A program made the translations under genes and the position numbers. Positions 7,465-23,074 of a stretch of DNA of 64,000 bases are shown here, piece by piece; within the stretch, counting starts at the first letter, position 1; each line of letters opens with the position of its first letter. A model generated the notes under the pieces. It was given only the letters and a program-made list of their open reading frames with translations. It ran no database searches and was not told the DNA's origin. Location of the stretch: the NCBI GenBank assembly GCA_021399435.1, contig JAJTUP010000013.1, positions 620,001-684,000 of the forward strand, given 5' to 3'. The stretch is from Diaporthe sp. PMI_573. Lineage: Eukaryota > Ascomycota > Sordariomycetes > Diaporthales > Diaporthaceae.

Positions 7465-10179
7465 ATGCAACCGTCACCGGCCCGTGTGGCAAAGGCCGGC
7501 GGCGGCACACCGGCGCCGTACGGGCATGCCTGCACGAACTGTGTCAGGGCCAAGTGCAAATGCATGTATGGCGATCATGTTGGCGCATGCGAGAGGTATG
7601 TTACTGCTTCCGTACAGTACCGATAGAGTTGCCCAGTCTGCCCCTCATTGTCTATCACTGGCAGACGTAGAACCTAAGCACTCAGTTCCACCTCGAGACC
7701 ACTTCTGAGCGTTGCTTGTCACGCCATGCCGTCACCTCCAGTACATTTTGTAACACACCCTCTCTGTTGACTCGATTTACTCACCACAATCCAGGTGTTT
7801 CCGTTTGCAGAAGGACTGCCAGCCTTCAGTGCCAAATCGCAAGCGGTCTCAGAAGAAGGTACCAGGTTCGAGGACAGCTCATCTGGAGGAAAAGCTGGAC
7901 GACCTCGTTTCCCTGATACGGTCCCAAACAGCTGTGAAGGGGCCCAATGAATCACCGCCAGTGCCGACCCCAGGATCACTGGGGCAATCGACATCCAATG
8001 CCACCGCCCTCCCCTCCCTGTCATCAGACTCAAGCCCCAACACCGTAGGCACGTCAGTCGCGACCTGCCGTGCATGGGGTGGCAAGACGAACTCATCCAG
8101 CAGCGCTGCAGACTCGGAACTCGACTACTACGTCCCAGAGAATGAGGCCCAGGAGCGCCTCGATCTCTTCCGGCGTGATTTTCCGCAGTTCGGCCCGATA
8201 GTTTACATCCCGCCGAATGTGACTGCCAAGGAGCTCCATCAGACTCGTCCTCTGCTAGTAAGCAGCTTTTAGATACAATCTTAACCCCTTCAAGAAGGAA
8301 TCTCTCCCATCTGTGGCCTGGCCTCAAAGGACTTATTACGCTGGTGGTTTGAGATAGGCTATGGCCACACTGTGGCGCTTTATTTCCCCTATTTGTATAA
8401 AAGTACTCCCTTGGTGCTCTGATAGCTGACTCCGAATGCTGCAGTGGATCTCCATCATGGCTTGCACAACCCGCTCTACGAAAGAGTCCCATCTGATTGG
8501 GGACAAAATTCGGCATATTGTCTCGGACAGGGTGGTGCGGCAGTACGACAGGAGCCTGGACCTGTTGCAAGGCTTGTTGGTCTTCCTTTGCTGGTCAGTC
8601 GTTGCACATTTCGTCTTCAATCCATAGTGTGTTGTGGAGTCCTCCTTTGCTTTCAGCATGCTGTACAACATGTCCCCGTGATGTTCTACACTATTTGATT
8701 TCACGTTTGAGGAGGATGTCTTTCTTATGACAGGCCAGTCACGCTTCAGTTGCTACCACTTTCAGGCAAACTTATCTACTTCAACCCCGTAAATTACAGT
8801 CAACGCTGATTGTCGACACATAGGCCACACTCCCACAAAAAGGAAAATCCGTTCATATCGATCTGGACTGGTATCGGAGTTGCCATAGCTCAGGACCTTG
8901 GGCTCACCGCTATCAAGACTGAAACGGCATTCACTTTTATGAAAAAGTTTGCATTCCACGGGATGAAACATCCACAGACTAAAGAAGGCACAATGGAAGC
9001 CAGGAGGACATTATTAGCTCTGTTTGTCTGGTGCAATACGTAAGTCTACTTTCTTGAACACAAATGGGACCGAAGCATGTAGCAACCTGCACCAGGCACT
9101 GACATGAACCACAGGGCCTCGCAGATGCTACGAAGAGACAACCAACTTCGCTGGACACCTCACATGGAGGAAAGCCTACGGCTTTTAACAGAGCAGCCTG
9201 AGTGGGAAGGAGACAAGACGCTTTCTATACAAACACGGTGTGCTCTCATCTCGGAGCAAATGAATGATCTATTCATACAACAGTCCATGCGTGGAGAGAA
9301 CCAGATATCGCCATTCTTTATAAGGGCGCTTGACGGGCAATTGCAAGATATTTGGAGGACACTACCAGGAATAACAAACGCTTCTCGTAATGGTAAGTTT
9401 CTTGGAAGGAGAACCGGTACAGCTGGGAGCATTGTGTTTGACGCTGTTCTTCCCGTCCTCACCGCCACTGTGTCTGTATGAATAGACCCTAACTCTCCCT
9501 CTCTCCCTTTCTCGCAGAAACAGTGCTACTCCACATGTACGCCACGGAAGTCGCCATCAATGAGCTTGCCCTGCATCTACCTCCGCCCACAGCTCATTCA
9601 GACGTTATGTTCCGCCTAGAGCGGCTGCAGAAGTGTCTCAAGGCCATCGAAAACTGGTTCGACACGTACGAGGTTACACCGCCGTCTATGGCGCTGGGCG
9701 GGACGTTCCACCTCTTCGTGCAGCTCGTTACCTGCCTGGTGACCGTCATCAAGCTCAGCACGCTCGAGGACTTCCCGGCCTGGGACACGGCCGAGGTGCG
9801 GCGACGACTCGACGTCTTTGCCTTGTTCGACCGCGTCGCGGCGCGTATGGACAAGATCCGTGTCGCGGTCGGAATTCAGGAGGACGACGAGCGCGAGGAG
9901 AGCATCTGGGCCAAGTCGGTCAAGGTCATGGGGCTCATGAAGGCTGGCGTCCAGGCGGACTGGGCGAGCAATGGGATCGCCGGCGGCGAGCCTGACCCGT
10001 CCGCGGCTGGTGCGCAGGCCCTTGACAACCGGCTGGCCATGACCGGGGGCAATGACGCGGTCATAGGGGCCAATTTGCAGATCAGCCAGGATGCCCTGAC
10101 TGGGGAGTTTGTGCATAATTTTGGGGACGACCCATGGCTGTCTGCAATGTTCATCCCTTGGGATGCGATGAATTTCTAA
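7465..10179 (+). CDS. Zn(II)2Cys6 fungal transcription factor
   Basis: Six exons: 7465-7595, 7795-8257, 8445-8593, 8824-9039, 9115-9392 and 9518-10179, giving 632 residues. The binuclear zinc cluster lies at residues 23-52 with spacing C-X2-C-X6-C-X8-C-X2-C-X6-C, and intron 1 cuts it just before the fifth Cys. A basic linker and short predicted coiled coil (HLEEKLDDLVSLIRS) follow, then a divergent fungal-specific middle domain (RPLLWISIMA, DLLQGLLVFLCW, IAQDLGL). It is expected to be a nuclear DNA-binding regulator; targets are unknown. All exon joins keep phase and bring together family-typical motifs. Introns 1-3 are long for this genome (199, 187 and 230 bp), and intron 2 ends in the introner-like block at 8381-8444. 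The neighbourhood of decayed MFS and HET genes suggests an accessory locus. Confidence 0.9.
8381..8444 (+). repeat. Introner-like block forming the 3' part of regulator intron 2
   Basis: This 64-base block starts TATTTCCCCTATTTGTAT and ends at the intron 3' AG (CTGACTCCGAATGCTGCAG). It matches the cellobiohydrolase intron at 21645-21709 (opposite strand) at 58 of 64 positions with no gaps, including the CTGAC branch-point candidate and the acceptor. The base before it is T where the cellulase copy has G, so its own GT donor is lost. The gene appears to use a donor at 8258 instead, because the intervening 123 bases contain in-frame stops. Confidence 0.85.
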
Positions 10180-21331: not shown

Positions 21332-23074
21332 TTAGAAAGCCGGGTTGGCGTTGGTCAGGAGCTGCTCGAAGTACGCCTGGAACCAGGTGCCTGCCTCAGG
21401 AGCGGGCTTGAGGGAGTCGGACTGCCCGCAGTGGAAGTCGTACCGGGTGGCGCTCTGGTCGCTGGTGCCGTCCGACTCGCCGCCAGGCTTGACCCAGACG
21501 AAGGCATCCTCGAGCTCGAGGCCCGTGTTGGAGGTGGGGCGGAGGCCAAAACCGGTTCCTCTGGGGTGCTTGTGTCAGTCAACTATTTCCGCCCGAGTCT
21601 TCTCCGGATGAGTACTTACAAGGCGTTGCACCAGTCTCCCCATGCTGCAGCATTCAGAGTCAGTTATCAGAGCACCAAGGGGGTGGTTTCATACAAATAG
21701 GGGAAATACCGGTCTGGAGTGTAGGCTGCTTGCCGGAACGGCCTTGGTCGGTGATGAAGTGTGCGTTGAACCCCTCGGCCTTGAGGAGAGGTGCGATGGC
21801 CTGGACGTAGTGGGACTCGTCGTAGTTGGCGTTACCTTGAAGACATGTTAGTGTCCTGGTCTGCGGTTCCCGGTCAGTTCTTTCACCACAGGAGACTCAC
21901 CTTGGGTGTAAGACGGTGCAGTGGCGACGCTCCATGCGTTGTAGTTGGCTACGTTCGTCGCAAGCCCACGCACGGCAGCCGGGGAGCCAGCATCTTTGTA
22001 CACCTTGGCAAACAGGTCGGCGGCGGGCTGCAGGTTGGCCTGCCATCCCAGCCAGCCGGCGTGGCCGGCATCCATGTACATCGCGACGTTAGGCAGGTTG
22101 AGTTGCTTCAGGGCGTACTGCGTGGACAGCAGGTAGTTGTCCTTAGCATTGGCGCACTTGGCGACATTGAGGTTGGTCACCAGGTTGGCGAGCGAGTCGG
22201 GCTCGACGACCAGCAGGACCCGGATGTCTGAGTAGGTGATGAGCTGCTTCCGGATCGAGTCGATGTATGCCTGGTACTTAGCGGCGCCACCGTTGGCGTA
22301 GCTCAGCTCCCCATTGGAGGCAGCGGCCGCACAGTCACGGTCGGGGAGGTCATACACCACGAAAAGGCCAGCGTACGGGGTAGTGGCACCCTTGTTAGCA
22401 GCACGGATATCGGCAAGGGTACCCGCCATCAAGGTGTCAACCTTATCAGCGGTGTCGCTTTTCGGGGAGTCAGTCAGCCATCAGTACACGGATGCGGGAC
22501 GGGAGAGATACTCACAGCCACTGGAAGCTAGGCACCTTGGCGACCGCAGCGGCCTTGGTGGCCATGGCTGCCGACAGACTTGGAATGGCTAGGGAAGAGA
22601 CCTCGGAGGCATAGTAAGAGTTGGCCCACTGGTTAACGCCCTGGAAGGGGTTGCCGCTGTACGAGGCGGTGGTGCCGGCACCTCCAGGAATCGTGGTTGA
22701 CGGCTTGACCGAGGTGGTGGCTGAGCCTGCGGTGGTGGTGCTCGCCCTGGACGTCGTCGACGATGGGGCTGCGGTGGTGGTGGTGGTGGACGTTGTCGCG
22801 GCAGTGGAACTGCTCGCAGCCGAGCCGGGCAGGCACTGCGAGTAGTAATCATTAACTTTGTTGCAAGACGACCCTGACGCGCAGCAGGTGGCTCCCGACC
22901 AGCCGATTCCGCCACACTGTGAGCTGACCGCCGCTGTTAGTATTTCGAATCCGAGAGTCGAAGGCCAGGTGCGAGGTGGACCTACTACGTGGTGCCACAG
23001 TTCTGTCGCTCTTCGACAGGCGCGGCCAAAGCCATGCCGGCCAAGGCGGCGAGGAGTACGCTTTTGACGGCCAT
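21332..23074 (-). CDS. cel6A: GH6 cellobiohydrolase II with N-terminal CBM1
   Basis: Six exons: 23074-22986, 22923-22516, 22457-21901, 21835-21710, 21644-21620 and 21560-21332, giving 477 residues. A signal peptide ([19 protein letters not shown]) and propeptide precede a complete CBM1 ([15 protein letters not shown]...YYSQCL). A Thr/Ser-rich linker and the GH6 catalytic domain follow. The catalytic acid is in YDLPDRDC (about residue 207). Other landmarks are [32 protein letters not shown] and the C-terminal [15 protein letters not shown]. The enzyme releases cellobiose from the non-reducing ends of cellulose. The first donor was placed at GTAGGT because this restores the first CBM1 Tyr; using GTAGTA upstream would lose it. 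Exon 5 is only 25 nt. Intron 4 is the introner-like element described separately. Confidence 0.95.
21645..21709 (-). repeat. Introner-like element: intron 4 of the cellobiohydrolase gene
   Basis: On the minus strand this 65-bp intron starts GTATTTCCCCTATTTGTAT and ends CTGACTCTGAATGCTGCAG. Apart from the first G, the whole intron aligns without gaps to the end of regulator intron 2 at 8381-8444, with six mismatches. It splits a codon after its first base (ACC G|CA TGG). Correct removal is supported by the restored GH6 motif TLQTAWGDWCN. No target-site duplication is obvious at its ends. Confidence 0.88.

Follow-up and report, generated by a model that had tools for sequence, protein, structure and literature searches.

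Introner-like elements (ILEs) were reportedly described in Dothideomycetes by van der Burgt and colleagues in 2012. In the accessible text of Collemare 2015 (PMC4457414), ILEs of this class appear as near-identical spliceosomal introns that reside in many unrelated genes of one ascomycete. The available portions of Gozashti 2022 (PMC9860276) describe ascomycete introners as lacking terminal inverted repeats (TIRs) and target-site duplications (TSDs) and as biased toward genes, and interpret fungal introners as RNA-based and propagating through reverse splicing. According to the same source, DNA-transposon introners of algae and protists are short non-autonomous introns with insertion preferences, many of which have TSDs, TIRs or both, or recruit a splice site from the sequence they enter. 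A further group, the sister stwintrons of Hypoxylaceae and Xylariaceae, is presented in the accessible text of PMC8469720 and PMC12403724 as proliferating introns, for example of 184-207 nt, that insert seamlessly without target duplication and that give rise, via deletion between short repeats, to shortened canonical derivatives termed cropped sister introns. Text searches of the literature consulted returned no paper pairing Diaporthe with introner or Diaporthales with introner-like, and none on the isolate name PMI_573.

We analyzed a window of 64,000 nucleotides from Diaporthe sp. PMI_573, for which a preliminary description had proposed that a GH6 cellulase gene and an unrelated Zn(II)2Cys6 gene share an intron belonging to an introner-like family. 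Our analysis supports such a family, with corrections to the repeated unit and to the status of the GH6 copy. The two window introns very probably belong to an introner-like element family of this genome, in which a GT-to-AG spliceosomal intron occurs at more than 100 places. Like the Dothideomycetes ILEs, as far as the available text of PMC4457414 describes them, the Diaporthe family consists of nearly identical spliceosomal introns spread over many unrelated genes of a single ascomycete; it differs in belonging to the Sordariomycetes (Diaporthales). The window features are as follows.

7465..10179, plus strand: Zn(II)2Cys6-type gene (our model, 632 aa, five introns)
7596..7794, plus strand: ordinary intron 1 of this gene, used as negative control
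8256..8257, plus strand: TA of the TA|TGG target, 5' side; TGG resumes at 8445
8258..8444, plus strand: full-length 187-bp introner, the entire intron 2, GTAAGCAG..CTGCAG
8381..8444, plus strand: block of the original match, 3' end of the element
21332..23074, minus strand: GH6 gene with CBM1 (Cel6A-like), start to stop codon
21561..21619, minus strand: ordinary GH6 intron 5, retained, 25 nt downstream of the introner (exon 21620-21644)
21641..21644, minus strand: CATG adjoining the 3' end of the GH6 copy (junction G|CATGG)
21645..21709, minus strand: GH6 intron 4, 65 nt, made up of the introner's 3' third and the first base of a GT donor

The similarity between the two introns reported earlier is real: 21645-21708 aligns without gaps to the reverse complement of 8444-8381 with 58 of 64 bases identical (E=3e-14). 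It was the sole pair reported when the window was compared with itself by BLAST (E 1e-3). The CTGAC noted in both copies is present in each, and both end in CTGCAG. Because the two genes are encoded on opposite strands (GH6 minus, Zn(II)2Cys6 plus), both copies are in the sense orientation. The preliminary description took the 65-bp intron to be what is repeated; this proved wrong, as the unit is the whole GT..AG intron, mostly 187-190 bp. The matching block makes up all of GH6 intron 4 except the first base, and only the last third of the 187-bp intron 2 in the Zn(II)2Cys6 gene. Relative to the full element, GH6 intron 4 lacks about 122 nt, with GT joined to ATTTCCCC. Judged by its sequence, the GH6 copy is an internal deletion derivative in which GT and AG are retained. 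Removal of intron 4 yields a protein with 100% identity over 477 aa to an NCBI protein of Diaporthe sp. PMI_573; removal of intron 5 likewise agrees with the annotated protein, and comparison with solved structures reveals no gap at that position. The closest relative of the Zn(II)2Cys6 protein is from Diaporthe batatas (90% identity over 100%).

The family extends far beyond these two copies, as had been predicted: the union of all places found amounts to at least 162 copies or fragments in the genome. As searches by DNA sequence and by pattern underlie it, this count is a lower bound; 122 copies or pieces, all unique, were read as sequence, and 40 further places were counted by location. Searching with the 65-mer gave 40 scored matches among 81 candidates in its own genome, and 34-base patterns for the element ends, allowing up to three mismatches, matched 112 places (5' end) and 145 places (3' end), versus none across the genome for the backward-pattern controls. 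Intron 1 of the Zn(II)2Cys6 gene, an ordinary intron (198-base query, 7598-7795), had one genome match, itself. Ten contigs (C161, C173, C160, C101, C145, C138, C169, C146, C124 and C35), totaling 7.93 Mb of the 83.7 Mb assembly, hold 110 of the 162 places, and introner density ranges from 37 per Mb on C161 to 2.9 on C112 and 1.5 on C1.

Nothing indicated that the copies stem from an assembly that is doubled or mixed. PF00562 had three matches, the number expected for the nuclear polymerases of a single haploid genome, and the 23 matches to PF00227 fall at 14 places, about one set of proteasome genes. One of these 14 places is on the ten introner-rich contigs (C35), no clear depletion of the kind that would point to an accessory nature. 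For WD40 matches, also used as a marker, 150 of 682 candidates were scored. A telomere-repeat pattern had no match in the genome; such repeats are perhaps missing or skipped. The Rpb2-family match at C112:203442-204539 has a single in-frame TAA, which may mark an intron.

End-to-end copies number 111. Duplicated flanks surround four copies, two of which sit in one duplicated segment shared by C161 and C177. Dropping these four leaves 107, and 106 remain for junction analysis after one without a flank is set aside; 11 partial pieces, among them the GH6 window copy, are outside this analysis. Separately, the duplicated segment itself (C161:140862-142069 and C177:251813-253022) carries two introners in each version, at equal spacing.

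The length of the element is 187-190 nt in 67 of the 111 end-to-end copies and 187-192 nt in 79. A typical full copy reads GTAAGCAGCTTYTGG...CTGACTCTGAATGCTGCAG. GTAAG begins 104 of the 111 copies and AG ends 107, the other four being without a terminal AG. Two copies, L094 (C101:179336) and L068 (C138:174326), start with TAAAG instead of GTAAG, and their donors may be dead. In the flanks of 30 matches, the repeat continues upstream of the 65-mer and stops at GT; since it stops at GT and AG in the flanks read, no larger repeat surrounds the element. Six copies share a length of only 128-130 nt, consistent with a loss of sequence between two CTGTGGCC repeats. A single 128-bp subfamily was considered and rejected, as the six copies form no clade and their common ancestor spans 25 copies (support 0.368); repeated deletion between the CTGTGGCC repeats is therefore as likely. 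In the copy at C161:182486-182606, GTAAG is fused directly to a later part of the element. A stable RNA fold is a trait of ILEs; here, folding is modestly stable, with z scores of -1.99 for one full copy and -1.27 for the GH6 copy, and the consensus fold is weak (-3.45 kcal/mol). Nearest-neighbor identity between copies has a median of 0.947, and the best pair outside duplicated segments reaches 0.984. Comparison of the copies with one another demonstrates past multiplication of the family.

Several lines of evidence place the copies within coding sequence. The element interrupts all reading frames with stops in 106 of 110 flanked copies. Once it is removed, a codon-usage score is best on the sense strand at 97 of the 110 junctions and on the opposite strand at 13; calibrated on 185 known coding chunks, this score chose the right frame for 156 and a wrong one for 29, 16 of these on the wrong strand. 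In 75 copies both flanks independently score as sense, and the frame is continuous across the junction in 65 of these. Five spliced proteins (an aldehyde dehydrogenase, a GH3 beta-glucosidase, an aminotransferase, a glutamate synthase and GH6) were aligned to PDB chains, two alignments each; all are gapless at the junction, and the nearest gap is five residues away. The junction is seamless in all six genes aligned with relatives. In the Zn(II)2Cys6 protein, RPLL|WISIM is gapless against 11 related proteins, and around QT|AWGDWCN the GH6 protein remains in step with nine relatives, with no residue gained or lost. Among 20 spliced peptides searched against Pfam (19 of 33 prepared, plus L032), a domain spans the junction above the curated cut-off in nine and below it in four more, of which the match in L085 (DUF2157) looks spurious; no Pfam domain crosses the junction in the other seven. 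The expectation that matches would lie mainly in introns, and not in parts of a larger repeat, is thus borne out by the sense coding context of 97 of 110 copies, the internal stops in 106 of 110 and the edges at GT and AG. Among those examined, nearly all copies appear to be in the sense orientation and in coding exons. We infer that the elements are spliced from the reading frames, the comparisons with relatives and, for GH6, the identical annotated protein.

A target motif recurs at the junctions. Of 106 junctions, 43 read A|TG, versus 2.2 expected and a maximum of 9 in 2000 draws from same-phase positions of the same exons. By the same reckoning, CA|TG is found at 23 (0.8 expected), TA|TG at 14 (0.3) and C|ATG at 9 (0.5), and an ATG starting within -3 to +1 of the junction at 63 (8.9 expected, maximum 18 in 1000 draws). 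CATG is present at 32 junctions and A|T at 47 (6.3 expected). As read from these junctions, YA|TG and C|ATG sites are preferred; 63 of 106 junctions are without A|TG, and 43 are without an ATG starting at -3 to +1. One of the 106 rows is a diverged copy on C145 whose upstream flank is a neighboring introner. When copies are split into thirds by nearest-neighbor identity, with the four duplicated flanks included, A|TG or |ATG is seen in 13 of 37 in the lowest third versus 22 of 37 and 23 of 37 in the others. C precedes the junction in 11 of 24 copies of one clade versus 7 of 83 elsewhere (Fisher p 1e-4, 107 copies), a comparison that is exploratory because the clade, with support 0.368, was picked after the tree was seen. 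Direct repeats of 4-9 nt, as a TSD would leave, are found in the flanks of 0 of 106 copies, and repeats of 3 nt in one versus 1.7 expected. No significant TIR was found: the best candidate, the 8-nt GCAGC-TTC, did no better than 189, 446 and 685 of 2000 shuffles with end windows of 20, 25 and 30 nt, respectively.

These properties resemble those of the ascomycete introners in the accessible text of PMC9860276, with which the Diaporthe family shares the absence of TSDs, the absence of a significant TIR and the bias toward genes. That text gives no nucleotide motif for the ascomycete families, whereas the Diaporthe family has one; the comparison is with the text description rather than with the logos in Figures S3-S5. 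Similarly, the words motif, target and insertion site are absent from the available text of PMC4457414. Algal and protist introners, as that survey's available text describes them, are likewise short non-autonomous introns that favor certain insertion sites. Unlike many of them, the Diaporthe element carries both splice sites itself, without a TSD or significant TIR. Relative to the accessible texts of the systems compared, the target motif of the Diaporthe family is new.

The sister stwintrons, in the portions of PMC8469720 and PMC12403724 available, are likewise proliferating introns of Sordariomycetes that insert seamlessly and without target duplication and that have shortened canonical derivatives. 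They are nested double introns whose bordering exons display no pattern, whereas the Diaporthe element is a single canonical intron with a YA|TG preference. The near-terminal 10-nt repeat pair of the stwintrons was not found among the Diaporthe copies: its 5' element occurs in L040 only, and there internally (position 138 of 189), and neither of the two partner sequences searched for is in any copy. The [D1,2] stwintron arrangement, with the donor split between G1 and T2 and a unit starting with GGT, does not fit either, as GTAAG begins 104 of 111 copies and G directly precedes the element at 23 of 106 junctions.

Introners also cluster. Pairs less than 1.5 kb apart number 13 in the same orientation and none in opposite orientations, with one pair repeating another through a duplicated segment, and some pairs are separated by only 70 and 154 bp. 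Two or three same-orientation introners each are found at C160:388113-388531, C161:182486-183032, C161:334337-335360 and C146:173516-174170. The closest arrangement is the following.

C145:359495-359874 (L019 2678-3057), minus strand: near-nested pair, CACA[introner]T[GTAAGCAG..]

Here the copy at C145:359684-359874 lies 1 nt upstream of a diverged, retained copy (family-profile scores of 183 and 56 bits). Judging the order of insertion by divergence only, the diverged copy is probably the older. Introns this nearly nested need ordered splicing, a hint at how stwintron-like structures could start.

How, then, might the family have spread? An ordinary dispersed repeat, segmental duplication or chance similarity is almost certainly not the answer. 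Four copies do have duplicated flanks, two of them in the C161/C177 segment, as such an origin would predict, but 107 of 111 remain after these are removed, in the flanks read the splice sites mark the limit of similarity, and the bias in sense and frame is pronounced; the unduplicated flanks and this bias refute it. That the unit ends at its splice sites, inserts seamlessly and lies nearly always in sense points to spliced intron RNA as the moving form. Through reverse splicing, the excised intron RNA would enter transcribed DNA directly, or else pre-mRNA; reverse transcription or repair would follow, and the ATG motif would stem from a preference for certain sites, either by the complex or by the intron RNA. 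We consider such reverse splicing of the excised RNA into transcribed DNA or pre-mRNA the most likely mechanism, at about even probability. The variant in which the excised RNA enters mature mRNA, is reverse transcribed and has its cDNA replace the gene would share the seamless, exonic and nearly always sense insertions. It should, however, erase nearby introns, and the diverged C145 copy 1 nt away and GH6 intron 5, 25 nt away, remain, as do the introner pairs 70 and 154 bp apart. The kept neighbors at C145 and in GH6 argue against this cDNA route, which we regard as improbable; what remains is insertion by reverse splicing at the DNA or pre-mRNA level, or else a DNA route of unknown kind.

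Transposition at the DNA level, whatever its type, is overall a minority possibility, and the target motif is compatible with some DNA-based routes. For a non-autonomous DNA transposon, a MITE-like introner with its own splice sites and a transposase acting in trans as in many algal introners, the short palindromic CATG at 32 of 106 junctions would suit an enzyme, and an 8-nt near-terminal inverted repeat (GCAGC-TTC) is present. Even in the most favorable case, though, 189 of 2000 shuffles do as well as that repeat or better, direct repeats of 4-9 nt occur at 0 of 106 junctions and of 3 nt at one versus 1.7 expected, the element ends coincide with the splice sites, and insertion is seamless in the aligned genes; we judge this origin rather unlikely. 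A non-autonomous rolling-circle (Helitron-like) element inserting between A and T would explain the lack of target duplication and the A|T at 47 of 106 junctions (6.3 expected), although A|T is not strict and C|AT is frequent in one clade. Helitrons have the terminal signatures 5' TC and 3' CTRR. Such ends are absent: the element begins with GTAAG and mostly ends with CTGCAG, so that its reverse strand starts with CTGCAG and ends with CTTAC. Moreover, nothing requires a Helitron to end at GT and AG, and a Helitron-like origin appears about as improbable as the cDNA route. A Crypton/tyrosine-recombinase origin would be a further lead.

A proto-splice site would read AG|G. The target motif is unlike it and may for this reason reflect a guide or an enzyme. 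We speculate that reverse splicing of the excised intron RNA, into transcribed DNA or unspliced pre-mRNA, could be direct and sequence-guided at YA|UG or C|AUG, with the intron's own sequence tuning the cut, a tentative proposal that we hold to be somewhat unlikely as formulated; the tuning is suggested because C before the junction is more frequent in the one clade (11 of 24 copies) than elsewhere (7 of 83).

The origin of new spliceosomal introns is an old open question. With more than 100 copies, exact ends, a target motif, possibly clade-dependent sites and kept neighboring introns, the Diaporthe family makes rival mechanisms (DNA transposase, cDNA and direct reverse splicing) testable in a sequenced isolate and opens the birth of introns to study. 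If direct, sequence-guided reverse splicing is true, the family would offer a mappable example, in nature, of spliceosomal introns that enter genes with neither a DNA transposase nor a cDNA involved.
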